Source: a virus. Taken from it: 48,606 nucleotides of DNA. Location: the IMG/VR virus record IMGVR_UViG_3300025669_000052, positions 1 through 48,606 of that record; one strand, given 5' to 3'. The notes below the pieces were generated by a model. It saw nothing but the letters and a program-made list of their open reading frames with translations, searched no databases and had not been told where the DNA came from. Shown here piece after piece: positions 383-23,905 of this stretch; the first letter of the stretch is position 1; every line of letters starts with the position of its first letter. The translations under genes were made by a program, and so were the position numbers.

Positions 383-649
383 ATGGATGAGGAACGTAAA
401 CTTTACAGTTTTGATGAACTTTATCAACAGCATAAGAAAAATGGTAGGGGGTTAAATTCTAATTCTCACAAAAGAGGAAAAGAAAATCCCTTGATTGAAG
501 ATAGGGCTTTAAATGTTCTTATGGGTAGAGTTACAACAAAAGGATACAAGCTAATTGAGTTAGCGTTAGCACATCCACAAGAATTAAACGACTCATTTAG
601 AGTGATTCAGAATGTTAACATTTCACATTATGTTAAAAAGTATGAATAA
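383..649 (+). CDS. Hypothetical protein, 88 aa
   Basis: The first complete gene after the repeat region, preceded by AGGAG at about 371. It encodes a small basic protein rich in Lys, Asn and His at the N-terminus, followed by a likely helical C-terminal half (IEDRALNVLMGRV, IELALAHPQELNDSF). No domain, membrane segment or Cys cluster is visible. It lies 15 bases upstream of the ATP-grasp gene at 665 and is probably co-transcribed with the amidoligase cassette, so it could be a substrate, carrier or unrelated early protein. I do not recognise the family. Confidence 0.7.
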   Translation: MDEERKLYSFDELYQQHKKNGRGLNSNSHKRGKENPLIEDRALNVLMGRVTTKGYKLIELALAHPQELNDSFRVIQNVNISHYVKKYE

Positions 650-664
650 TAGGAGGTAAATAAT

Positions 665-1612
665 ATGTCGTTATGTGTAGGGGACAGAGTGTACCATCGT
701 GGTGCAAAGGGAAATGGTGTTATTGTTACCATTAATGAGGATTTGAATAGGGATAAATATGGTATCAAATTCTTTTGGAGTAAATATAAAAAGATGAAAT
801 TACACAACTTAAATGGTTTCTTGAGTAAACCGATGGGAGTTTGGGCGAGTGAGGATAAAATAACTAAAACTCCTATGCCTACAAGAACAAATGCAGTTAC
901 GGTCATGGGTACACGATCACTCGATAAATTAATTAGAAATATTTGTGAGTTTCCTCATCATATTAATTGTGTTCCTTTTTATGGTTCTGATTATGTTATC
1001 CATGTTAATTATGGTACATTTAAAAATGCTCCTCAAAGAGGGAGGGTGATAAACCGCCATTTAGTATCTGATAAATATGAGCAATGCAGACAAATGTTAG
1101 AAAACGGCGTGTCTGTACCTTTTATAGCCAGAGCACCTTTTGAGGGGTGTATTCAAAAACCATTTCACTCTATGGGAGGTAAAAATATAAAGAAGTATAG
1201 CAGGGGGGATATAACCTACGGTTATTTTCAAAAGGAGATAAAAAAGGTACGAGAATTTAGAGCACATGTATTTCTATGGGGGGAGTGTAAAGTTCCCCTA
1301 ATTCAGGAAAAGACGGTAGACGATCCTACTCAATTAACATGGAATAAAAAACAGGGAGGTAAATTTCATACAGTATTTCAGCATATTCCACACAAAAGAA
1401 ATACTGATGACAGGCTATTCAATAAAATAGTAACTCTTTCAGTAGAAGCTACAAAAGCAATAGGTTATGATATGGGTGGAGTTGATTTAGCTTTAGATAA
1501 TGATGGTAAACTGTGGGTATTTGAAATTAACTCTCGCATGGGGCTGAGAGAAAAGAGTCTTTGTACCTATAAAACTAAATTTTGGGAGCTTTACAACGCT
1601 ACCGAAGTGTAA
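665..1612 (+). CDS. ATP-grasp amide ligase-like protein with N-terminal SH3/KOW-like domain
   Basis: 315 residues. Residues 1-55 (CVGDRVYHRGAKGNGVI) look like a small SH3/KOW-type barrel. The rest has ATP-grasp marks: the nucleotide-binding strand with Lys165 and the glycine loop at 170-172 (KPFHSMGGKN), EFRAH at 197-201, and the metal-binding end with Asp274 (GGVDLAL) and Glu287/Asn289 (VFEINSRMGL). Members of this fold make an acyl-phosphate from ATP and join it to an amine. The RBS is AGGAGG before ATG 665. The gene starts a run with a second ATP-grasp gene, an amidoligase and a class II amidotransferase, so a peptide- or amide-forming role is inferred. Substrate is unknown; a RimK-like or phage COOH-NH2 ligase family is the nearest fit. 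Confidence 0.8.
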   Translation: MSLCVGDRVYHRGAKGNGVIVTINEDLNRDKYGIKFFWSKYKKMKLHNLNGFLSKPMGVWASEDKITKTPMPTRTNAVTVMGTRSLDKLIRNICEFPHHINCVPFYGSDYVIHVNYGTFKNAPQRGRVINRHLVSDKYEQCRQMLENGVSVPFIARAPFEGCIQKPFHSMGGKNIKKYSRGDITYGYFQKEIKKVREFRAHVFLWGECKVPLIQEKTVDDPTQLTWNKKQGGKFHTVFQHIPHKRNTDDRLFNKIVTLSVEATKAIGYDMGGVDLALDNDGKLWVFEINSRMGLREKSLCTYKTKFWELYNATEV

Positions 1613-1627
1613 AAGGAGGTGTAAATA

Positions 1628-1966
1628 ATGTTTAATATATTTAAAAGGAAAAAGAAATTGGATGAAGATTTAATAATAGCAAAAGTGTTGATGGAAATAA
1701 AAGATCGTGTTGATTATCAATGCAGAGCATTAGTATATTCTATGTTTGAGAGAACATCTTGTAACGATAGAGTAGAATCTGCGTGGGGAAAAGGTTTTAT
1801 GGTAAAAGTGCCTACATTGCGAAAAACGATATTTGATTATCTCATTGATGAATCCTTTAAAAGATTTAAAAAAGAGATAGAATATAAAGCAATAGCACGT
1901 ATTCAAGGAGAGGAATTTCTTGATGCTTTTATTGAACGTATTAATAAAAAACAATTAAAAGGATAA
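1628..1966 (+). CDS. Hypothetical basic helical protein, 112 aa
   Basis: It starts 15 bases after the first ATP-grasp gene behind AAAGGAGGTG, and lies between the two ATP-grasp genes. The protein begins MFNIFKRKKK and is predicted mostly helical and basic, with two Cys and no clear domain. It contains no signal peptide or membrane span. Because it sits inside a set of predicted amide ligases, it is a candidate substrate, carrier or subunit of that system, but this rests on position only. Confidence 0.7.
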   Translation: MFNIFKRKKKLDEDLIIAKVLMEIKDRVDYQCRALVYSMFERTSCNDRVESAWGKGFMVKVPTLRKTIFDYLIDESFKRFKKEIEYKAIARIQGEEFLDAFIERINKKQLKG

Positions 1967-1984
1967 ATGGGAGGGAAGTAAATT

Positions 1985-2764
1985 ATGAAAACTATTATGT
2001 TATTGTCTAAGGAAAAGAGTAAGACTGCAAAGGCTCTTGTGAAACATTGTGAATTTACTCACAACACAATGACTCCTAAACCTCACGCAATCATAAACTA
2101 TGGATTGCAGGGGAAACAGAGAATGCTGTGGTATAAAGAGCATGGACAGGAAATGGAGGGAATTCCAATTATAAATGATTGGGTTCAAATATCAAGATGT
2201 AACATGGTGAAACTGGCGGAATCTGGAGGTATTCCTGTACCAGAAACACACAATAATATTAAGTCTGTTCCAGAAGATCAGCAATTTGATTTTGTTATTA
2301 AACAAAATTGGGCAAATATACCAGAAGAGATGCGTAACGTAACTAAAAATACTGCACCTAAAAAGGGGGAATACCTTCAACGGTACATGTCTAATAAGAC
2401 TTACGAAATTAGAGTGGCAGGATTTTTATGGGAAGATTTGGGAAATTGGTTAGTGTGGAAGAAAAAGAATGTTGATTTAAATAGTAAATATAGAGTGACA
2501 GCATTTCCATTTAATGATATTGTTTTAAAAATTTGTATAAAACATACAGAAGAAATTCTTAAAAAACTGGGATTGTTATTTGGGTCTGCTAATTTTATAT
2601 TTGATAATAACTTTAAAAGACTCGAATTTTTAGAAATAAACACCTGTCCTAAATTTTTAACATCATCAAAGGTACATTATCAAAAATATTTTGAAGAATT
2701 AAAAATGATTTTAACTGAAACTACAAAGGAGGGAGTTGCAAAATGGATAAGCAAACTGTTGTAG
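1985..2764 (+). CDS. Second ATP-grasp amide ligase-like protein
   Basis: 259 residues with the order expected of an ATP-grasp enzyme: an N-terminal pre-ATP domain (to about 75), VIKQNW with Lys106 as the nucleotide-binding lysine, GEYLQRYM (128-135), the strand YEIRVAGFLW (140-149) and the terminal FLEINTCPKF, whose Glu and Asn fit the metal ligands. It is shorter than the gene at 665 and not close to it in sequence, so the two are not a simple duplication. The end overlaps the start of the zinc-finger/amidoligase gene by 22 bases, indicating coupled translation. Predicted role: ATP-dependent ligation of a carboxylate to an amine, with unknown substrate. Confidence 0.8.
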   Translation: MKTIMLLSKEKSKTAKALVKHCEFTHNTMTPKPHAIINYGLQGKQRMLWYKEHGQEMEGIPIINDWVQISRCNMVKLAESGGIPVPETHNNIKSVPEDQQFDFVIKQNWANIPEEMRNVTKNTAPKKGEYLQRYMSNKTYEIRVAGFLWEDLGNWLVWKKKNVDLNSKYRVTAFPFNDIVLKICIKHTEEILKKLGLLFGSANFIFDNNFKRLEFLEINTCPKFLTSSKVHYQKYFEELKMILTETTKEGVAKWISKLL

Positions 2765-4236
2765 AAAAAATTTCTTTAATTAATGAAGACATTAAAGCAA
2801 TTACAAAATTTATAGATGAGTTTTTTGTGTATGATGATTGTAATTGTGATGGATGTTCTCGTAAGAGAAACGGGGTTAAACTAAAAAGTCTGTTTAAGAC
2901 AGTTAAAACAATAGATATTTTAAATAGGAATAAAGAAAATCTATCTGAAGATATTTCTGATTTATTTACTTTTATAAATAATATTAGTTTGAAATTAAAA
3001 CAAACTAAAAAAAATAACAAAACAATGTTAAAAAATATAGACGTTTTTGATGAGTGTGATTTGTGGATTTGTAAAATTTGTGGTACATGTGTAAATGATA
3101 AAGAAAATGAAGGGAATATTTGTAGCACATGTTATGTTACATTTTATGATAAATGTACAAAATGTGGTGTACATATCATAAAATCAAAAGATAATGCATA
3201 TAATGGTGGACGTTTTTTCTGTTCCAAATGTGTAAAAACGCTAGAGAAGTGTATAGATTGTAATAATTTATATGAAAAAAAGGAGATGAATGAAAAGAGT
3301 CAATTTATAAATTCTAGGGGAGAATTTATACATGAAACTAAATATATATGTGAATATTGTAAAAACTCATACATAACCTGTCACCAGTGTGGAATATCTA
3401 TGCACGAATCCGCATCCTTTTGTTATGGTGATAATAGATATTGTGGGGATTGTATTGCTGATAAACAACATCTGTTTGCATACAATTATAGACCAGCAGC
3501 GAATAAATTCTGTATTGATAAAAGAAAAACCAAAAATAAAGATACTAATCTTTTATATTATGGTTGTGAAATTGAATTGGAGAGTAACTATGATGGTGTT
3601 GATAGAAATAATATTATAAAAGCCGTATCTGATATTTTTGGAGATAACTTAGTGTACGGAAAGGAAGATGGGTCATTGACACATGGATTTGAATTTGTAA
3701 CACATCCGTTTGCATGGGATTGGTTTATGGCTAATAAATATAAGTTTAATCAGCTATTTTCTATGTCGAAACTATATGGCTTAAAAGCTATGTCTACTTG
3801 TGGTGTACACGTTCATATGTCAAAGAATGCTTTTACCTCTTGTCATTTATATAAATTTATGTATTTTATAAATGAAAATAAACATAGAAATTTTATGACC
3901 AAGGTAGCGAAAAGAGATATTACGGGTCATAGGTTTTGTGCTGCTGTTGAGGGTAAAAAACCATTAATGGCTTTGGTAAACAAAAATAAAGAGTTTAGTA
4001 TAGGCAAATATAGTGCTGTTAATTTACATCCTCCGCAAACTGCTGAGGTGCGTATTTTTCAGGGTACGGATAAGCCACGAGTATTCTTTGCTTATTTGGA
4101 GTTTTTAAATTCTTTATATAAGTTTACAAAAGATATTTCTATAAAAGAAGTGGGAGTAGATAATTTTGTATTATATTTAGATAAAAACAAAAATCAAAAT
4201 GTCAACATTCTTAAATTAATAACTAAGGGGGGATAA
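2743..4236 (+). CDS. Zinc-finger array fused to a glutamine synthetase-like amidoligase
   Basis: 497 residues. Residues 33-38 carry C-x-C-x2-C, and 110-237 hold at least five further Cys pairs (CKIC, CSTC, CTKC, CSKC, CIDC, CEYC, CHQC, CGDC), a LIM/RING-like array that should bind several zinc ions. From about 270 comes an amidoligase (GS/gamma-glutamylcysteine synthetase fold): GCEIELE with Glu276/278/280, DGSLTHGFEFVTHPF (309-323), CGVHVHMS with His356/358, and EVRIFQG with Arg437. Known members use ATP to form amide bonds. ATG 2743 follows GGAGGG and overlaps the preceding gene. The zinc array probably recognises the protein or RNA partner; that is inference. Confidence 0.85.
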   Translation: MDKQTVVEKISLINEDIKAITKFIDEFFVYDDCNCDGCSRKRNGVKLKSLFKTVKTIDILNRNKENLSEDISDLFTFINNISLKLKQTKKNNKTMLKNIDVFDECDLWICKICGTCVNDKENEGNICSTCYVTFYDKCTKCGVHIIKSKDNAYNGGRFFCSKCVKTLEKCIDCNNLYEKKEMNEKSQFINSRGEFIHETKYICEYCKNSYITCHQCGISMHESASFCYGDNRYCGDCIADKQHLFAYNYRPAANKFCIDKRKTKNKDTNLLYYGCEIELESNYDGVDRNNIIKAVSDIFGDNLVYGKEDGSLTHGFEFVTHPFAWDWFMANKYKFNQLFSMSKLYGLKAMSTCGVHVHMSKNAFTSCHLYKFMYFINENKHRNFMTKVAKRDITGHRFCAAVEGKKPLMALVNKNKEFSIGKYSAVNLHPPQTAEVRIFQGTDKPRVFFAYLEFLNSLYKFTKDISIKEVGVDNFVLYLDKNKNQNVNILKLITKGG

Positions 4237-4240
4237 TGGT

Positions 4241-4549
4241 ATGTGGAAAACGGTTATGGGGTATAATAAATATGAAATTAATACTGAAGGTATGATTAAA
4301 CATAAAAAAACAGGACATATTTTAAAAAACACAAAACGAAAGGATGGTTATTATCAAGTGGGATTGCCAAGAAAAGAATATATTCATGTATTAATTGGTA
4401 AAACATTTTTACAAAGATTATTAAAAAACTGGTATAAATTTAATGTACCGAATAGGAGTTGTACAATGATAGCAAAAATATTTAAAGTATCTTATAGTAC
4501 AATTACCAAGATAAAAAATTCAGAGAGGGGGTGGTTACTATTTGTATAA
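4241..4549 (+). CDS. NUMOD4-like remnant of a homing endonuclease lacking the HNH core
   Basis: 102 residues. The start (MWKTVMGYNKYEINTEG, then GHILK and YYQVGL..YIHVLIGKTF) matches the NUMOD4 plus lead-in of phage HNH homing endonucleases. The expected HNH core (an N-H-I-D-G type segment) is absent. The protein passes directly to a C-terminal helix-turn-helix like NUMOD/IENR modules (SCTMIAKIFKVSYSTITKIK). It therefore looks like an internally deleted homing endonuclease that keeps only DNA-binding parts. It sits between the amidoligase and the amidotransferase, and its last 10 bases overlap the latter. It may be inert or a DNA-binding regulator. Confidence 0.65.
   Translation: MWKTVMGYNKYEINTEGMIKHKKTGHILKNTKRKDGYYQVGLPRKEYIHVLIGKTFLQRLLKNWYKFNVPNRSCTMIAKIFKVSYSTITKIKNSERGWLLFV
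4521..4542 (+). promoter_or_regulatory. Ribosome site favouring an AUU start at 4540
   Basis: The purine run CAGAGAGGGGG at 4521-4531 directly abuts GTG 4531, leaving almost no spacing for that codon. It is 9 bases from ATT 4540. ATT is immediately followed by TGT, so initiation there makes Met-Cys, which is what a class II amidotransferase needs. There is no ATG in the frame nearby. Confidence 0.5.
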
Positions 4550-5433
4550 TTGTATACCACCCAGAAAAGGCTGAGGTAATCACAAAGAAAACACTAAAAA
4601 TCTGCTTCAAAAATAACGATGATGGGGCAGGATATACCTATTGGGACGGAGAGAAAGGTAAATGGATTATAAAAAAGGGATTTATGACTTGGGGATCATT
4701 TTGGAACGCATTTAAAAAACATGAGTTTACTAAAAATGATGCGTGGGCAGCCCATTTTAGAATAGCTACATCAGGTAATACAGATAGTGGAAACACTCAT
4801 CCTTTCCCTATTACTAATAGCTATGATGAAATGAGAGAATTAGAATTAGAAACAGATATGGCTGCTTTTCATAATGGTATTATGGGTACGGGAGAAGAAA
4901 AAGCGAGTGACACAATGAAACATATTAAAAAGTGCCTACACCCATTACGAAAACAGTTTATGAAAGACGAGTTTTTATACATCATGAAGAAATTATGTGA
5001 TATCAGTTCTAACAGATGGTTAATAGCAACGACAAAAGAAGTTTTATTTTTAGGAGATTGGAAAAAACATGAGGGGTCTTATTTTTCTAATACGTCATAT
5101 GAAAAATTGAAATGGTCTGCTCAACCAACTGTTAATAATCAAAATAGTAACTATAATAAAGGTAACTATACAGGAAAGTATCCTAAAACAGACTATTGGA
5201 ATAGTAAAGAATATGAAAATTATAGAAACTGGAGTGATTATTATCAAGGAGATGGAAAGTTTGATGTCGGTGATTTTTCGAAATGTGTTGCTTGTGGTGA
5301 GGAGGAGTTCATCGGCCCATCTATGTTTAGTGATTTCAAACTGAGATGTTTCAAATGCGGGTGTGTATTTGATCCTGTAACAGAGAAAGTGAGTTTCTTT
5401 GTGCCAGCAGAGTATGACAAGGGGGGTAAATAA
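4540..5433 (+). CDS. Class II (Ntn-type) glutamine amidotransferase-like protein with C-terminal zinc ribbon
   Basis: 297 residues if started at ATT 4540 (300 if at GTG 4531). The start Met-Cys-IIVYHP puts Cys2 as the N-terminal nucleophile. Further family marks are NNDDGAGY, AHFRIATSG at 71-79 (substrate Arg and Thr), THPFP, and FHNGIMG at 110-116 (Asn-Gly oxyanion hole). These enzymes release ammonia from glutamine for a partner synthetase, or act as related amidohydrolases. After a Tyr/Asn-rich linker comes a zinc ribbon, CVACGEEEF...CFKCGC. It closes the ATP-grasp/amidoligase cassette and is overlapped by one base with the primase gene (TAATG). An ammonia supply or an amide-cleaving role in that pathway is inferred. 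Confidence 0.8.
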   Translation: MCIIVYHPEKAEVITKKTLKICFKNNDDGAGYTYWDGEKGKWIIKKGFMTWGSFWNAFKKHEFTKNDAWAAHFRIATSGNTDSGNTHPFPITNSYDEMRELELETDMAAFHNGIMGTGEEKASDTMKHIKKCLHPLRKQFMKDEFLYIMKKLCDISSNRWLIATTKEVLFLGDWKKHEGSYFSNTSYEKLKWSAQPTVNNQNSNYNKGNYTGKYPKTDYWNSKEYENYRNWSDYYQGDGKFDVGDFSKCVACGEEEFIGPSMFSDFKLRCFKCGCVFDPVTEKVSFFVPAEYDKGGK

Positions 5434-6356
5434 TGGTTGAATCTATGATTAAAGCACCAGAAGAAGTGATGAAAGCCATAGACTCCGGTAATATTGGTGG
5501 TAGGATTTGCCATTTAAAAAGAGCTGATGGAACTAACTGTTCCAATGGTAAATCTTCTTCTATGGTGATTACTAAACGACACACATGCTGGGGATACTAT
5601 TGTTTTAGATGTAAAATGTACGGAGAAATTCCCTTTGATAGGAATACTCCAGCACAGACTCTAAAACTAATAGCGGCTAACAGAGCACGAAAAGAGATGA
5701 ATTTATTTGGTAGCAGCATAACTCTACCACGAGATTTTGAAGTGATAAACGGTAACAATGCCACAGCAGCAGCACGTAATTGGCTGTGGAGATACGGAAT
5801 AGGGTTAAATCTGTGGAAGAAGTATCAGATAGGATGGAGTAATATTTACCAAAGATTAATCTTTCCATTGAGAGGAGATTTAAAAATAAAAGAGAGTGTA
5901 ACACTAAAAGACACATTGTTAGGATGGGTGGGTCGTGATGTGGAGTTTGTCAAAGATGAAAATAAAATGACCGTAGGCTCTCCAAAATATTTGATTAGAA
6001 CAAAAGAAGATAAAGAGCGTAAATATTTTACCTACAATAGAAAAGATGCAAAGACACTAGTTATAGTGGAAGATATTTTATCTGCTATAAAAGTATTTGA
6101 AGCTGTTGATAATGTAAATGTTATGGCGTTGTTAAATTCTTCTATCAATCCATTGGATGTATTTACGCATTACAGACGGCAAGCAATAAAGATTTGGCTG
6201 GATGCTGACATGAGAAAAAAGTCTATTGGAGAGGTAACTCGATTGTCACAGTTCGGATTTACAGTTAAGCACATATATAGTTTTAAAGACCCTAAAGAGC
6301 ATAGATATAGTGATATTAAAGAATTATTAAAACCAACATTAAGATTAGTAGGATAG
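5433..6356 (+). CDS. DNA primase (zinc finger plus Toprim)
   Basis: 307 residues. An N-terminal zinc-binding site is formed by Cys26, Cys36, Cys52, Cys57 and/or Cys60 (CHLKRADGTNC, CWGYYCFRC). A Toprim domain follows, with the catalytic Glu213 in LVIVEDILSAIKV and the Asp-x-Asp pair at 257/259 in IWLDADM. It should synthesise RNA primers for the helicase and polymerase encoded downstream. It has no helicase domain, so it is like the primase half of T7-type primase-helicases, with the helicase supplied by the separate gene at 8377. Start ATG 5433 overlaps the preceding stop. Confidence 0.88.
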   Translation: MVESMIKAPEEVMKAIDSGNIGGRICHLKRADGTNCSNGKSSSMVITKRHTCWGYYCFRCKMYGEIPFDRNTPAQTLKLIAANRARKEMNLFGSSITLPRDFEVINGNNATAAARNWLWRYGIGLNLWKKYQIGWSNIYQRLIFPLRGDLKIKESVTLKDTLLGWVGRDVEFVKDENKMTVGSPKYLIRTKEDKERKYFTYNRKDAKTLVIVEDILSAIKVFEAVDNVNVMALLNSSINPLDVFTHYRRQAIKIWLDADMRKKSIGEVTRLSQFGFTVKHIYSFKDPKEHRYSDIKELLKPTLRLVG

Positions 6357-8376: not shown

Positions 8377-9594
8377 ATGACAGAGTTAAAAATACTACGT
8401 GCTTTCTGTAAGAATAAAAAGACTTTCGGAGAGTATAACATATATTTTAAAAATCTATTTGATAATATGGAACGTGAGTTGAAGATTATATTCTCTTTGA
8501 TAGAGGAGTATTATAATAAATATGATACTCAAACTAAAATAACCAGAGAGGAATTACTAACGTTCTATTCCTTTGTGTATCCGGTGAGCAAGAGTAAAAT
8601 AGTGTTTACTGAATTGATTGCTGTTATCTTTGATACAGAGGTACAAAATGATTTGATTGTAGATTTATTGAAACAGCTAAAGGAGAGGTATTTTGCAACA
8701 CGCATTGTAAACAAGCTGTTGCCTGTAGTAGAGGGGGCTAAGTTTGGAGTATTTCCTACTCTAGATTTAGATGTTAAAGAGTTTCTGTCTGCTCAAAATA
8801 TGAATACGGATGAGTCCATACAGCCGTTTACTATGTCAGTTAAAGATTTAATCACTACTGTAATTGAGAGGGATGGATTATTGTGGCACTCAAATGAACT
8901 TGTAAATATTATAGGGAGTATTCCTAGAAAGAGTTCAGGATTAGTGTTTGGGTATGTAAATTCTGGTAAGTCTTCATTTTGTATATCGGCCTGTACTAAT
9001 TTTGCTAAACAACTAACAGACGAATGTATTGTTTATGCAGGAAATGAGGAATCTGCCGCTAATACCTCATTAAGAATGGTTGAATCAATGACAGGAATGA
9101 CAGAAGAACAAATAGAAAACGATCCTGACAAAGCAGAACAGTTGTGTAAAGAAGGAGGAATGGAGAAAATTAAATTATTTGATTCTGTTGTTACCATAGG
9201 ACAGGTAAAACAACTGTTAGATAAATACAGACCAAGAGTTATGGTAGTAGATCAAGCAACTAAAGTACGTACTAATTCAAAAGAAAAGAATATTATTGCT
9301 ATGCAACAGCTTTTTAATGAGTATCGAGAATTAGGAAAAATGTATGACACATCTCTTATTGGTGTCACTCAAGGAGATGCAACGACAGCCAATAAAAAGT
9401 ATCTCGAATTGTCTGATATATACAGTTCTAAAGTAGCTATACAGGGAGAGTTAGATTATGCAATAGGTATAGGAACAACAGATTTAATATCTAAAAAGGC
9501 GTTTAGATATATTAATGTTCCTAAAAATAAAGGGCCAATGGGCAGGTTTATTTCTATCTTTAATGAGCAAACCTGCTCGTGGAAGGACGTCTGA
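8377..9594 (+). CDS. dnaB: DnaB-like replicative helicase
   Basis: 405 residues with a RecA-type core: Walker A GYVNSGKSS at 192-200, AGNEESAANTSLRM (the strand after Walker A, with the catalytic-type Glu), Walker B RVMVVDQATK, and the later VTQGDA sensor-like strand. The N-terminal 150 residues are helical, like the DnaB N-terminal region. It should unwind the fork and work with the primase at 5433 and the polymerase pair at 10713/11924. The last base of its TGA is the A of the next gene's ATG (TGATG). It is shorter than bacterial DnaB (about 470 residues), as usual for phage forms. Confidence 0.85.
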   Translation: MTELKILRAFCKNKKTFGEYNIYFKNLFDNMERELKIIFSLIEEYYNKYDTQTKITREELLTFYSFVYPVSKSKIVFTELIAVIFDTEVQNDLIVDLLKQLKERYFATRIVNKLLPVVEGAKFGVFPTLDLDVKEFLSAQNMNTDESIQPFTMSVKDLITTVIERDGLLWHSNELVNIIGSIPRKSSGLVFGYVNSGKSSFCISACTNFAKQLTDECIVYAGNEESAANTSLRMVESMTGMTEEQIENDPDKAEQLCKEGGMEKIKLFDSVVTIGQVKQLLDKYRPRVMVVDQATKVRTNSKEKNIIAMQQLFNEYRELGKMYDTSLIGVTQGDATTANKKYLELSDIYSSKVAIQGELDYAIGIGTTDLISKKAFRYINVPKNKGPMGRFISIFNEQTCSWKDV

Positions 9595-10067
9595 TGAAGA
9601 TAAAACCTAATGACATATTTGGAAGATTAACAGTCGTTAAAGACAGTGGTAAACGACAAGGCGGAAGTATTTTGTGGGTGTGTAAATGTATTTGTGAAAA
9701 TTATATTTGTGTTTCAGCAGGTAATTTAAAACGAAAATTTAAACCCACAAAAAGTTGTGGTTGTTTACGGGCAGATCAAAATAAAAAAAGATCGACCCAT
9801 TCTATGACAGGAACAAAAACATATACAACATGGAAAAGTTTGAGAAACAGGTGTTATAGTATTAATATGAAACAATATAAAGACTATGGAGGAAGAGGTA
9901 TAGCAGTTTGCCATAGGTGGAGAAATTCCTTTGAGAATTTCTATAAGGATATGGGGGATAAACCCGAAGGGTTGTCCATAGATAGAATAGACAATAACGG
10001 ATGCTATGGTAAGTGGAACTGTAGATGGGCTACCCATATAGAGCAAATGAATAACAGGAGAAGATAA
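9594..10067 (+). CDS. HNH-type endonuclease with N-terminal zinc ribbon
   Basis: 157 residues from ATG 9594, chosen over the upstream GTG 9579 because GGAAGGA at 9581-9587 is well spaced for 9594. The N-terminus has IFGRLTVV followed by WVCKCIC and SCGC, a small zinc ribbon. The C-terminal half shows the phage HNH pattern: TTWKSLRNRCY, YKDYGGRGIAVCHRW, LSIDRIDNNGCY and NCRWAT..QMNNRR. These proteins nick or cut DNA and often act as free-standing homing nucleases. It lies between helicase and polymerase genes, the kind of place homing nucleases invade. A truncated relative follows the polymerase at 12653. Confidence 0.82.
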   Translation: MKIKPNDIFGRLTVVKDSGKRQGGSILWVCKCICENYICVSAGNLKRKFKPTKSCGCLRADQNKKRSTHSMTGTKTYTTWKSLRNRCYSINMKQYKDYGGRGIAVCHRWRNSFENFYKDMGDKPEGLSIDRIDNNGCYGKWNCRWATHIEQMNNRRR

Positions 10068-10458: not shown

Positions 10459-10735
10459 AGCAGCAAAATTTTGTGATAAAAAATTTGGAACAAGCATATG
10501 TGATTTTGAAAAATGTCGTTATATATTACCACACAAGAGATCACATGCTCCTTGTACCCATTGTTCACATATAGTATCAAATTATAAATTAAAAAAGGGT
10601 ACAAGAACTATTGTTATTTTTGGAAAAGGGAACATGGAGATTGGTAAATATATACCCGGAGAAACAAAACTAGCTGAATCTTTAAAAGAATTAAATTTAA
10701 GGAGACATATAGATGACAAATATAATAGGGCTTGA
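10421..10735 (+). CDS. Small Cys/His-rich protein, paralogue 3, with C-terminal extension
   Basis: 104 residues. The first 55 repeat the neighbours' pattern (LVICEAAKFC, C-x5-C, LPHKRSHAPCTHC). A further 45 residues (RTIVIFGKGNMEIGKYI) are not present in paralogues 1 and 2. ATG 10421 has AGAGGAGGT upstream. Its end overlaps the DNA polymerase exonuclease gene by 23 bases, so it is translated as part of the replication operon. Function unknown. Confidence 0.65.
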   Translation: MKEKEKDYLVICEAAKFCDKKFGTSICDFEKCRYILPHKRSHAPCTHCSHIVSNYKLKKGTRTIVIFGKGNMEIGKYIPGETKLAESLKELNLRRHIDDKYNRA

Positions 10736-11924
10736 TTGTGAGAGTGCGTATAATTTTGAAGGCAAAGGGATTATAAATCCTTGGATGGACGGATTCTATC
10801 TAACTTGTGTTGGTTTAGTTTCTACAAATCTTTTAGGTGTGTATCCATACGAAAAAGAAGTCATATGGTTTGATCATAGTACCCATCTACCTACACCAAG
10901 AGCAGTAGAAAAATTACAAGAGGTAGTTAATTGGGCTGATATAATTTGTGGTCATAATATTAAATTTGATGTTAATGTTTTACGCTCATGGTGTGGGATT
11001 AAATTTAACAATACACCATTATTTTGTACTATGATTGGAGATTATATAATTACAGGACAGAATACGAGAAACTTGAACTATTCATTAAATGAGGTGGCTG
11101 AAAGGTATGGGCTCCCTCCTAAATTAGATAAGGTTAAATCTCATTGGGATGATGGCACAGATACATGTGATATACCAGAGGAGATATTAGAAGAGTATGT
11201 TTTAGATGATGCAGAAAAACCAGTACTCTTGTATCATATGCAGATGAAAAAGATAGAGCAGTCTGGACTACAAAAGGTAATTGAGTTACAGAATGAGTTC
11301 TCATATTCACTATCTGATATGGAAATAGGAGGGTTTAGATGGGATGTGGAACGTTCTGATAGGCTAATAAAAGAAGTTGGTGATGAGTTGAATGATATTG
11401 AAACAGAGATGTTAGAGATTATAGATATGCCTAATGTAAATTTAGCTTCGTCTGATCACCTGTCCGCTATTTTATATGGCGGAATATTAAAAAGTAAATG
11501 TAGAAAAAGAGTATTGAAAACATATAAAACACGACCTGATAAATGGGTCGAACGATGGGTTGAAGAATCAATAGAGATAGATGGACTCCGCTTTGAACCA
11601 GATAAAAAATGGGCTACAAAAAAGGAGGGGGTGTATCAAACAGGCAAGGATATTTTAAAGAAACTAAAATGCAAGACACCGCAACAGCGTAGGTTTAAAA
11701 AACTATTGTTAGTACACAGTGTTGTACAAAAATCTTTAACCACATTAAAGGGGAAAGATGGAGGACTCTCCACTAAGGTTAGAGCAGATGGTAACATACA
11801 CCCATCATTTTTACAAACTATAACGGTAACAGGTAGACTCAGTAGCCGTGATCCTAACGGCACAAATTTACCTCGTGGGAATACTAGCCCGATAAAAAAT
11901 TGTATCATAAGTGAGGAGGAATAG
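10713..11924 (+). CDS. polA: DNA polymerase A, N-terminal part (3'-5' exonuclease and thumb/palm start)
   Basis: 403 residues. The exonuclease domain shows Exo I (GLDCES), Exo II (CGHNIKFDVNVL) and Exo III (YVLDDAEKPVL). The polymerase region follows, up to TVTGRLSSRDPNGTNLPRG and IKNCIISEEE, the segment that in ordinary family A polymerases runs straight into motif A. The chain stops there at TAG 11922-11924. The catalytic motifs A, B and C are in the next gene. The two products should assemble into one proofreading polymerase for genome replication. The reading frame of the second half differs, so read-through alone would not join them. Confidence 0.88.
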   Translation: MTNIIGLDCESAYNFEGKGIINPWMDGFYLTCVGLVSTNLLGVYPYEKEVIWFDHSTHLPTPRAVEKLQEVVNWADIICGHNIKFDVNVLRSWCGIKFNNTPLFCTMIGDYIITGQNTRNLNYSLNEVAERYGLPPKLDKVKSHWDDGTDTCDIPEEILEEYVLDDAEKPVLLYHMQMKKIEQSGLQKVIELQNEFSYSLSDMEIGGFRWDVERSDRLIKEVGDELNDIETEMLEIIDMPNVNLASSDHLSAILYGGILKSKCRKRVLKTYKTRPDKWVERWVEESIEIDGLRFEPDKKWATKKEGVYQTGKDILKKLKCKTPQQRRFKKLLLVHSVVQKSLTTLKGKDGGLSTKVRADGNIHPSFLQTITVTGRLSSRDPNGTNLPRGNTSPIKNCIISEEE

Positions 11925-12649
11925 TGGGAATATTACAGCTTGATTTGTCACAAATCGAATGGAGAGCTGCTGCTTGGTTGAGTCAGGATGCTGTTATGAT
12001 GCACGAGATTAATAGTGGTGTAGATCAGCATAATGCAGCTTGTACAGACTTAATGGAGTTAGAACTAACAAAGGAGAATAGGTTCTTTGCTAAGGTACTG
12101 AATTTTCGGATGATTTATGGCGGTACAGCATATGGATTTTATATGGATGTTAATATGCCTAACTTCTCCCAAAAGAAATGGAGAACTATTGTCAATGGGT
12201 TTTATGAAAAGTATTGGGAGTTAGCAGAGTGGCAGGAACGGAACATTGCCTTTGTGTTTGAGCATGGGTATTTACAGATACCAACTAAAAGATTGTTTAT
12301 ATTTAACAAAGACAAAGAAGATAAAGGGGTGATGGTGTACAATGAAACCAAGATAAAGAACTACCCTGTACAAGGGTTGGCAGGAGGTGATATTTTACCA
12401 CTATTAGTAGTGATTTTAAGAAGAGGGCTTCGTAAATATAAAATGAAATCCAGATATATACTAACTGTGCATGACAGTATTGTATTTGATTACAAAGAAA
12501 ATGAATTGAAGTTATTAATCAATCTTTGTAATGCAGTTATGGGTAATTTAGTACAGAGTATAGAGAATTACTTTAACATATCATGGAATGTAAAATTGGC
12601 AGGTAGCATAGAAATCGGCAATTCGTATGGAAATTTAGAGGAGGTGTGA
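11924..12649 (+). CDS. polA: DNA polymerase A, C-terminal part (motifs A, B and C)
   Basis: 241 residues from GTG 11924, which overlaps the preceding TAG by one base (TAGTG) and has AGGAGGA at 11914-11920. Motif A is LDLSQIEWR right at the start, motif B is RFFAKVLNFRMIYGG, and motif C is TVHDSIVFD. All catalytic Asp residues are present, so it appears active in complex with the upstream half. Because motif A begins four residues after the start, there is no later start that keeps it. A -1 shift near the overlap could also make a fused chain, but no slippery heptamer is evident. Confidence 0.85.
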   Translation: MGILQLDLSQIEWRAAAWLSQDAVMMHEINSGVDQHNAACTDLMELELTKENRFFAKVLNFRMIYGGTAYGFYMDVNMPNFSQKKWRTIVNGFYEKYWELAEWQERNIAFVFEHGYLQIPTKRLFIFNKDKEDKGVMVYNETKIKNYPVQGLAGGDILPLLVVILRRGLRKYKMKSRYILTVHDSIVFDYKENELKLLINLCNAVMGNLVQSIENYFNISWNVKLAGSIEIGNSYGNLEEV

Positions 12650-21163: not shown

Positions 21164-23905
21164 ATGTTGAGTACTAACGCTTTAGAAATAGCAGAGAAGA
21201 GATACTTCCTTGAAGGAGAAGAATGGGAAACTTGTACGTTGAGAGTAGCAGAGGGTGCAGCTACGAGTAAACCTGACTATACATATTATCGTGATGCCTT
21301 TCATGGTATGATGTACAATATGTTAGCTATTCCCGGAGGGCGTATCTTACGGAATGTTAGACGACCAAGAGGGAGTCTGTTTAATTGTTATCATCTTCCC
21401 ATTACAGATAGTATTGAAGGGATAGGAGATTGTATTAAGAATTCTCTCATATTATGGAGTGATGGAGGTGGAGTTGGAATTAACTTCAGTACACTACGCC
21501 CTAATGGTGCTCATATTATGGGGAAAGGCGGACACTCTAGTGGTGTAGTATCATTTATGTCTGCTCTTGATGCGGCAGCTACTACTATTGAAAGTGGGGG
21601 TCAGCGTAGGGCTGCTGCTTTAGGAGCATTAGATGTAACACATCCAGACATAAATAATTTTTTAGATGCTAAAGTAAAGGATGGTTTATTATCTTGTTTT
21701 AATTTGTCTGTTAACATTACTAATGATTTTCTTGAAGCTGTTATGAAGAACGCTAAGATTGATTTGAAATTCAATCAGCAGGTTTACAAAACAGTTAAAG
21801 CGAGAACACTATGGAACAAGATAGTAACTAACATGTTGAAGAATGGAGAACCGGGATTGATTAACTGGACTAATATGACTAAAAATAATTCTTATTATTA
21901 CTCTCCAATTCTAGGGACAAACCCTTGTTTTGCTAATGATTCCAATATATTAACAAGAGAAGGGTATTATCCAATACAAGATTTGGTTGGTAAAAATGTG
22001 AATGTTTGGAATGGTACTACATGGGTTAATATAGATAATTTTAGAATCACTGGCACAAATGAAAAAATGTTAAAAATTATTTTACATGATGGTTCTGAAA
22101 TAAGAACAACCCAATACCATACTTTTATTTTAAACAACGGTATTAAAAAACAAGCATATAAACTTAATATAGATGATAGACTAATGATTAGTAATGCTCC
22201 AACTGTTGTTGGAACAACAAAAGTTAATGGAACATATTTAAAAGGATTTTTATGTGGAGATGGAACACACCATAATATTCAACCTGAATTAAAAGTGTAT
22301 CATCCTAAATTTATGTGTTTACCTAAATTAAAACAATCAGCAATGGAATTACCGATTGTAAAAAGGAATACTAATTACATTTCTGATATTAGTTTTTCAT
22401 CTAGTATTACAAGAAAAAATATGTCAGGATTAACTTGTAGAGATGAAGATTTATTGTTATGGGTAACGCAATATCGTAAGTCATTACCAAATGAAATATT
22501 AAATTGGGATAACAATTCTAAATTTAATTTCATTGCTGGGGTTATGGATGCTGATGGCACAGCTTCCGATACAAAGAACGGATTTATGTATCAAATTTGT
22601 AGTATACATAAGCAATGGTTATTAGATTTTCAACTATTATTGAAAACAATTGGTGTATTATCACATCTATCTTTGATGAGAAAGGAGGGAAAGAAAGATT
22701 TTAATGACGGCTATGGAGAATATTATTCGCAAGATTGTTGGAGATTAACTATTTCGCAAACAAGTAGTGTTAAATTATCTGGTTTAGTTTCTTTTGAAAG
22801 ATTAGTTTCTTTTAAAAATAAAGTTTGCCATTATAGAATTAAACCAAAATTTAATAGGATTATATCTATTATAGAAGATGGTATTGATGATAAAGTATAT
22901 TGTTGCACAGTTCCAAACTCTCATAAAGTATCATTATCATTAGGTATAACTACGGGTCAATGTGGAGAAACTTGTCTATCAGCATGGGATGTGTGTAATC
23001 TGATGTCTCTAGTTCTTCCTAATTTTCAGGGAGCTGGTGGTAATACTAATTGGGAAAAGTTACGAGATATTATCCATTTGTCAATTAGATTTTTAGATAA
23101 CATCATCGACAATAATCGTTACTCCATTGACAAGATTCGAATGCAAGCACACAACAGTAGACGAATAGGATTGGGAGTTATGGGTGTTGCTGATTATTTA
23201 TTTAAAAAGAAAATTAGGTACGGTTCAGCAAAGGCTGTGGATGAGATAGAAAAGTTGATGAAGTTCATTCGTAATGAATCTTATGGTGCTTCTGTTGAGT
23301 TAGCGAAGGAACGTGGGGCATTTCCTGCATTCAGTTCCTCTGAGTACTGTAAGGCTAGCTTCATTAGAAAGTTACCACCTAAACTACGTATGGCTATACG
23401 TGAGTTTGGAATAAGAAACGTTACGTTGAATGCTCTAGCACCTACTGGAACTATTAGTCTAATAGCGGACACTACAGCAGGGATAGAACCATTGTTTGCT
23501 AAGGCATATGAACGAAAGGATAGGGTGAGTGATCGTGTTTACATACATGAACTATATAAAGAATTTTTGCATTCTGATAATGTGCCTAATTATTTTGTCG
23601 ATACTAATGATATTTCGCCAGATGAACATCTCGATATGCAAACGGCTTTCCAAAAGTTTACGGACAGCAGTGTGTCAAAAACTATTAATCTTCCTAAAAA
23701 TTACAAGAAAGCTGATCTAAATAAGTTGTTATTGGAATATGCTTTTGATATAAAAGGAATGACTGTGTATAGAGATGGGAGTCGAAAGGGACAGATACTA
23801 AACAGATTATCTGAAGATGAGGTAATAAAACATCTTGAAGAAGGAACAAAACAATTAGATAGAACAGAGGAGGAGGTTAGCTGTTCATTGGGAGGTTGTG
23901 AATAA
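21164..23905 (+). CDS. nrdJ: Adenosylcobalamin-dependent class II ribonucleotide reductase, intein-containing
   Basis: 913 residues including a 345-residue intein (255-599); the spliced enzyme is 568 residues. Extein marks: LFNCYHLPI with Cys75 (redox partner), [23 protein letters not shown] restored by splicing (active-site Cys and Glu), [21 protein letters not shown], and the C-terminal CSLGGCE with Cys907/Cys912 for reduction by thioredoxin. Class II enzymes reduce ribonucleotides using B12 and no oxygen, so the phage can make deoxynucleotides in anaerobic or B12-supplied hosts. ATG 21164 follows AAAGGAGGAAG. The stop overlaps the next start (TAATG). Confidence 0.9.
21926..22960 (+). mobile_element. 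LAGLIDADG intein inside the reductase gene
   Basis: The coding segment begins at Cys ([17 protein letters not shown], block A) and ends [11 protein letters not shown] (block F) and ITTGQ, directly before Cys-Gly-Glu. Removing it restores GTNP-CGET, the conserved active-site sequence. Two LAGLIDADG-type motifs, LKGFLCGDG and IAGVMDADG, identify a DOD homing endonuclease domain. The terminal residue is Gln, not Asn, and the penultimate is Gly, not His, the non-standard type of block G. It should self-splice with Cys+1 as the acceptor. Confidence 0.88.

Follow-up and report, generated by a model that had tools for sequence, protein, structure and literature searches.

We analysed a 48,606-base virus record of IMG/VR (IMGVR_UViG_3300025669_000052, 34.8% G+C), the whole of which is called the window below, and focused on positions 665-5433. 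An earlier note on this DNA had placed here four enzymes that make or feed amide bonds and, between two of them, a 112-residue basic protein. The corresponding open reading frames (ORFs) were confirmed, and all four enzymes, namely two ATP-grasp proteins, an amidoligase and a class II glutamine amidotransferase, were found on the + strand (Table 1). The family assignments were borne out as well, by profile searches, an independent hidden Markov model (HMM), fold comparison or homologue alignments. We observed that consecutive intergenic gaps, from the ORF at 383 to the primase that follows the cassette, were 15, 15, 18, -22, 4, -10 and -1 nucleotides (nt). Short gaps and a single strand fit the tightly coupled block that had been described, but a NUMOD4 remnant at 4241-4549 had been overlooked; it separates the amidoligase from the amidotransferase, and the block is thus interrupted.

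Table 1. Features of the cassette and the first replication genes behind it.
Feature	Position	Strand	Length (aa)	Basis
Orphan ORF	383..649	+	88	Directly upstream of cassette; ribosome-binding site
ATP-grasp ligase 1	665..1612	+	315	Pfam PF14398 1.2e-7; independent HMM 3e-19; hhalign 1.1e-8 to phage cassette ATP-grasps
Orphan basic ORF	1628..1966	+	112	Between the two ATP-grasp genes
ATP-grasp protein 2, divergent	1985..2764	+	259	Independent HMM 5.7e-11; hhalign 5.5e-6
Amidoligase_2-like ligase, glutamine synthetase (GS) fold	2743..4236	+	497	PHROG, alignment, AlphaFold2 model, structure search
Homing-endonuclease remnant (free-standing type)	4241..4549	+	102	Pfam NUMOD4 1.9e-8; PHROG HNH-endonuclease families; sequence reading
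Class II (N-terminal nucleophile, Ntn) glutamine amidotransferase, from probable AUU start	4540..5433	+	297	tblastn, homologue alignment, codon and Shine-Dalgarno analysis
DNA primase	5433..6356	+		phrog_47 8e-22; opens replication module after cassette
DnaB-like helicase	8377..9594	+		phrog_19 3.6e-37; replication module, context

The amidoligase consists of a helical N-terminus, an array of CxxC motifs (about residues 110-237) and a catalytic core (about residues 270-497). It matched PHROG families at up to 5e-30, the sole named amidoligase family at 1.2e-4, and Pfam PF12224 was absent from its matches at E up to 1. All 13 columns that are invariant in a 63-sequence alignment were kept, and with them the motifs GxExE, DxS, HxH and ExR. 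An AlphaFold2 model made with 55 homologues had a mean predicted local distance difference test score (pLDDT) of 78.6, with most core blocks above 90. The solved folds closest to this model were glutamine synthetase, gamma-glutamylmethylamide synthetase and YbdK, followed by weaker matches to the depupylase Dop and the Pup ligase PafA. Whole-protein TM-scores were low (0.2-0.3), which would follow from an N-terminal half without counterpart, and we therefore claim for the modelled protein a shared GS-type core fold and nothing further.

The N-terminal part carries ten CxxC motifs, and ten cysteine columns were at least 90% conserved among 56 homologues. A profile of the array matched LIM domains weakly (best 0.0042). 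On these grounds the array, which had been described as zinc fingers, likely binds zinc. It is also widespread, as at least five CxxC motifs were present in 55 of the 91 phage-type amidoligase loci described below.

The amidotransferase was weak in Pfam (GATase_4, 0.008), reached phage homologues by tblastn at 3e-20, and gave nothing useful in a solved-structure search by itself. Alignment to phage homologues identified the catalytic Cys and the motifs HFRIAT (HFRxAT), HPF, HNG and SDT. Its assignment to class II was thus correct in the earlier note, but the start of the ORF at 4531 probably needs correction. Class II amidotransferases require the nucleophilic Cys directly after the initiator Met. 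In the ORF read from GTG (4531-5433) this Cys is residue 5, while it is residue 2 if translation begins at ATT 4540. The aligned class II phage homologues begin with 'MC' where the ATT 4540 start would fall. Automatic reading of the homologues gave ATG as the codon preceding the Cys in 151 cases and GTG in 1 (one apparent AGG came from a truncated ORF in which the wrong position had been picked, and ten homologues were unreadable). Further, the predicted anti-Shine-Dalgarno pairing was -12.4 kcal/mol for ATT 4540, which a strong Shine-Dalgarno sequence precedes by 8 nt, as compared with -2.9 kcal/mol for GTG 4531; the other starts of the block ranged from -7.3 to -12.9 kcal/mol. Since the Cys codon follows directly, homologues have ATG at this place and the pairing is stronger, the most likely start is the AUU codon at 4540. 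The alternative is a one-base change of ATG to ATT, by assembly error or mutation; only with AUU 4540, or with a misread ATG there, does the protein begin with Met-Cys as expected of its class. Two CxxC motifs (four Cys) near the C-terminus suggest a zinc-ribbon-like tail.

ATP-grasp 1 matched Pfam ATPgrasp_YheCD above the gathering score (1.2e-7) and the PHROG family 'ribosomal protein S6 glutaminyl transferase' (1.4e-10), and the motifs checked in a residue table (KPxxxxxG loop, ExR, D, ExN) were intact. For ATP-grasp 2, neither Pfam nor PHROGs gave an ATP-grasp match at the limits applied. Its AlphaFold2 model, made without homologues, had a pLDDT of 33.8, so no fold was assigned and the HMM was used instead. 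This HMM was built from 73 phage ATP-grasps of 66 IMG/VR loci, with the window sequences left out. The loci had been found with ATP-grasp alignments, and although one of these included ATP-grasp 1, the test of ATP-grasp 2 is unaffected. The HMM matched both proteins (Table 1), ATP-grasp 2 over nearly its full length; the best of 4,000 shuffled sequences reached 0.16. Judged by sequence, the two proteins are members of one phage ATP-grasp family. In a tree, ATP-grasp 2 was placed with second ATP-grasps that lie upstream in five other phages, but the support was only 0.215 and this placement was not used.

In ATP-grasp 2 the Gly-rich loop is missing, with Glu where 67 of 70 homologues have Gly, and Asn stands at a metal-binding position that is Asp in 70 of 70. 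Because of these two changes its activity is doubtful, and the protein may lack activity or serve as a partner subunit. The catalytic residues checked were kept in ATP-grasp 1, the amidoligase and the amidotransferase, while some were lost in ATP-grasp 2.

When solved structures were searched with ATP-grasp 1 by itself, nothing useful was obtained. The ATP-grasp profile matched best CdnC (3.3e-6) and AMdnB (1.9e-5), then Ddl, RimK and cyanophycin synthetase, all of them peptide-bond-type ligases. CdnC and AMdnB we take to be microviridin-type ligases. These matches, together with the small ORF between the two ATP-grasp genes, raise the question whether the ATP-grasps act as microviridin or graspetide ligases on a small peptide, possibly the 112- or the 88-residue ORF, which the amidoligase and amidotransferase would finish. 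We consider such a synthesis quite improbable. The 112-residue ORF is not conserved (no homologue in 5,413 neighbouring ORFs or in 80 bacterial loci) and had no Pfam or PHROG family match below 0.05; on inspection it was Lys-rich, and no Thr/Glu-rich core motif was seen. Neither a transporter nor a protease was identified beside the genes, and family profiles singled out no graspetide family for the window proteins. The 88-residue ORF had no Pfam match and one PHROG match (0.021), which we took as chance, and only its location directly upstream connects it with the cassette. The proposal that these two small proteins are substrates was therefore rejected, as they are not conserved and show no convincing family match.

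We then examined how constantly the genes occur together in phages. IMG/VR scans with each of the four proteins singly gave no relatives, which were reached by alignments only. A scan that found 388 amidoligase relatives supplied 80 phage-type loci, which with annotated records and the window made 91. In 81 of the 91, the strand of the amidoligase also carried a class II amidotransferase at most 400 nt downstream, at a median gap of 3 nt. In addition, 39 IMG/VR loci were chosen by their ATP-grasp alone, with at least 5.5 kb of flank on each side. Beside the ATP-grasp we found an amidoligase in 38 loci, a class II amidotransferase in 38, a COOH-NH2 ligase in 32, a class I amidotransferase in 22 and a second ATP-grasp in 6. 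These samples include close relatives, and the draws are not independent; the association of the cassette genes is nevertheless beyond doubt.

Two ATP-grasps were present in 7 of 66 sampled loci (L185, L214, L219, L220, L223, L224 and L230). In most of these seven, a class I and a class II amidotransferase flank one of the ATP-grasps. Within the first sample, the only zinc-finger amidoligase loci with a cassette-family ATP-grasp detected near the pair were L014, L015 and the window. Since ATP-grasps are rare beside zinc-finger pairs, the functional core is probably the amidoligase/amidotransferase pair, with the ATP-grasps as additions.

The pair was also observed in bacteria, where 72 of 80 amidoligase loci had a class II amidotransferase within the same distance downstream. 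These loci (L092-L171) were mostly from Ruminococcus and other Oscillospiraceae, with several per strain, for example in Ruminococcus flavefaciens. Their zinc-finger amidoligases mostly have 6-7 CxxC motifs ahead of the core. As in the window, a CxxC array is combined with an adjacent class II amidotransferase; in contrast to the window, the pairs lie on bacterial contigs, and no cassette-family ATP-grasp was detected in the 80 loci. The same stretches often contained genes for a MobA/VirD2-like relaxase (31 loci), a NikA-like protein (27), a resolvase (27) and an integrase (26), and for this reason the bacterial pairs are probably carried on mobilisable elements. We found no description of a zinc-finger pair on mobilisable elements of Ruminococcaceae in the literature searched, which left most subscription papers outside, and novelty is not proven.

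In the window the cassette is followed directly by replication genes. These are collinear with IMG/VR record G001 (amidoligase, amidotransferase, ATP-grasp, primase, helicase, split polymerase, exonuclease, reductase) and with Methylophilales phages MEP401/402 (amidoligase, amidotransferase, primase, helicase, split polymerase). The cassette therefore occupies a conserved slot ahead of the replication module, and that module is related to the one of the OM43 phages MEP401/402 (Zobellviridae). The window showed no DNA-level similarity to phage records. A 665-residue protein between primase and helicase had a weak methyltransferase match.

The earlier note had not recognised this combination of genes. 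However, the kind of cassette is already known, two ATP-grasps recur in other loci and zinc-finger pairs are common. A cassette of ATP-grasp, Amidoligase_2 and class II amidotransferase was published for LUZ24-like and RIO-1-like phages (PMC3890496, PMC5498523), with RIO-1, LUZ24, tf and phiEco32 among the known carriers, and an amidoligase/amidotransferase pair was published for OM43 phages (PMC10580990). The RIO-1/LUZ24/phiEco32-type cassette contains the same three families in an early block before primase and helicase. The window differs in a second, divergent ATP-grasp, an amidoligase of the zinc-finger subfamily and the zinc-ribbon-like amidotransferase tail. COOH-NH2 ligase and gamma-glutamyl cyclotransferase had no Pfam match among the scanned ORFs of the window, whose record is probably incomplete, and the former was also undetected in 7 of the 39 well-flanked loci, which makes it common and not universal. 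Because neither gene was found, we call the window a compact variant of the RIO-1/LUZ24-type cassette, with a zinc-finger amidoligase and two ATP-grasps, and not a full member. An Amidoligase_2/GS core, a class II amidotransferase, the phage ATP-grasp family and clustering before replication genes were all present; an active-looking ATP-grasp 2, a graspetide precursor and a match to PADLOC anti-phage defence models (E <= 0.01, nine proteins tested) were not.

In MEP401/402 and in mycobacteriophage Marvin (gp105-gp106) the amidoligase is directly followed by the class II amidotransferase, as in the window, and in MEP401/402 the pair precedes primase, helicase and a split DNA polymerase, again as in the window. 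Unlike the window, neither MEP401/402 nor Marvin has an ATP-grasp annotated or detected beside the pair, and their amidoligases have fewer CxxC motifs before the core (2 and 4, as compared with 10).

Amidotransferases of this class release ammonia from glutamine. GS-fold ligases make an acyl phosphate and from it an amide, and ATP-grasp enzymes pass through an intermediate of this kind when they form peptide-type bonds. The computed families, the core motifs kept intact in ATP-grasp 1, amidoligase and amidotransferase, the co-conservation and the synteny are consistent with an early-region cassette that combines glutamine-dependent amidation of a carboxylate with aminoacyl addition by ATP-grasp. 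The amidotransferase would hydrolyse glutamine and, as the constant adjacency of the two genes leads us to infer, pass ammonia to the amidoligase, which would activate a carboxylate with ATP and convert it to an amide. ATP-grasp 1 would couple a carboxylate of the same substrate to an amino acid or a small amine, before or after amidation, and ATP-grasp 2, a divergent relative, may be an accessory subunit or an inactive one. Docking of the two proteins, to each other or to the substrate, could be the task of the amidoligase's zinc fingers and the amidotransferase's zinc-ribbon-like tail. We hypothesise that the likeliest target is a carboxylate of a precursor of the host envelope (the peptidoglycan stem peptide), and that its alteration early in infection would exclude competing phages. 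As a whole, we hold this reading tentatively and give it somewhat less than an even chance.

Modification of the cell wall (the peptidoglycan side chain) with superinfection exclusion was proposed before, as a hypothesis (PMC5498523, PMC10580990, PMC11945000), which was traced to Iyer et al. 2009; the cassette was also treated by Hardies et al. 2013, both as cited in PMC5498523. A comparable reaction is performed by MurT/GatD of Staphylococcus aureus, a two-subunit glutamine-dependent enzyme that amidates peptidoglycan and whose ligase has a zinc ribbon (PMC6113224). It works alike, in that an ATP-dependent zinc-ribbon ligase and a glutamine amidotransferase subunit yield a carboxamide, but the folds are unrelated (a Mur ligase and not a GS fold; a non-Ntn amidotransferase with Cys94 and not an N-terminal Cys), and MurT/GatD is not a member of the family.

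Several observations weigh against our envelope reading. COOH-NH2 ligase and gamma-glutamyl cyclotransferase, absent from the scanned ORFs, are the tie of the classical cassette to gamma-glutamyl and peptidoglycan chemistry. Zinc-finger pairs mostly lack an adjoining ATP-grasp, and the individual reactions may thus not depend on one another. Conserved residues are missing from ATP-grasp 2. In the literature searched we found no experiment that addressed a phage amidoligase cassette. Finally, the weak LIM likeness of the array would suit a substrate of protein or nucleic acid no less than a precursor of the cell wall.

The last point leads to protein tagging. Here the LIM-like fingers would recruit a protein of the host or the phage, or else a polymerase or ribosome complex. 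The GS-fold ligase would amidate or tag carboxylates on it, much as RimK or PafA do, and the ATP-grasps would extend the tag. Because of the LIM-like array and the presence of pairs on probable mobile elements, we regard tagging as a serious rival, although on balance somewhat unlikely. The cysteine array is widely conserved, PafA and Dop are among the weaker fold matches of the amidoligase, ATP-grasp 1 has RimK-like matches, and the pairs near relaxase and integrase genes have no cassette-family ATP-grasp. However, the PafA matches are weak, we found no conserved target protein beside the genes, and zinc fingers are not diagnostic, as MurT has one and acts on peptidoglycan (PMC6113224). In a broader form, the zinc-finger pair would be a self-contained, horizontally mobile system of phages and of mobilisable elements in gut Ruminococcaceae, which modifies macromolecules; its LIM-like fingers would choose the protein that is amidated or tagged in conflicts between element and host, and the ATP-grasps would be optional. 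This we consider unlikely.

A nucleic-acid substrate was considered too, as zinc fingers could bind nucleic acid and the cassette has its conserved position directly before the replication module. With primase, helicase and polymerase as neighbours, the cassette might alter a base, a tRNA or the nucleotide pool. We think this very improbable; no known DNA-hypermodification gene was recognised among the scanned window ORFs, and the bacterial pairs show no constant link to replication genes.

The ORF at 4241-4549 bears on whether the block still functions in this phage. Its PHROG HNH-endonuclease matches fall mainly on the NUMOD4 part, and the C-terminal helix-turn-helix typical of HNH homing endonucleases was matched weakly; the HNH core is apparently deleted. 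In phage UFV-P2 an HNH endonuclease lies between the same two genes, amidoligase and amidotransferase (PMC3890496). Decay of the cassette would explain the lost ligands of ATP-grasp 2, the endonuclease remnant without its HNH core that splits the pair, and the lost ATG of the amidotransferase. We give decay little probability, as the ORFs are all intact and well spaced, with strong ribosome-binding sites, and three enzymes keep their invariant catalytic residues.

Cassettes of this kind are frequent in tailed phages, and a superinfection block via the cell wall has been hypothesised since 2009, with no experimental test found in the literature searched. The zinc-finger pair is a much smaller, two-gene version of the same chemistry that occurs also in cultured gut bacteria. 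With a two-protein system, what these enzymes modify could become testable.

A scan for promoters and terminators gave no more sites than shuffled sequence. Outside the cassette, terminase, portal and major capsid had no match among the scanned window ORFs, and the record is therefore probably incomplete at one end. Minus-strand late genes with few recognisable relatives occupy 25728-48358. A family A DNA polymerase is encoded in two ORFs (10713-12649), as in MEP401/402, and an HNH endonuclease ORF lies at 9579-10067. The ribonucleotide reductase at 21164-23905 has 913 residues, of which only about 580 profile positions were matched, and Pfam matches to intein-splicing and LAGLIDADG domains were present among the scanned ORFs; the reductase thus probably contains an intein. 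Just upstream of the cassette (175-296), a 61-nt AT-rich, strongly palindromic unit is present in two direct copies that are 98% identical, a possible regulatory or origin element.

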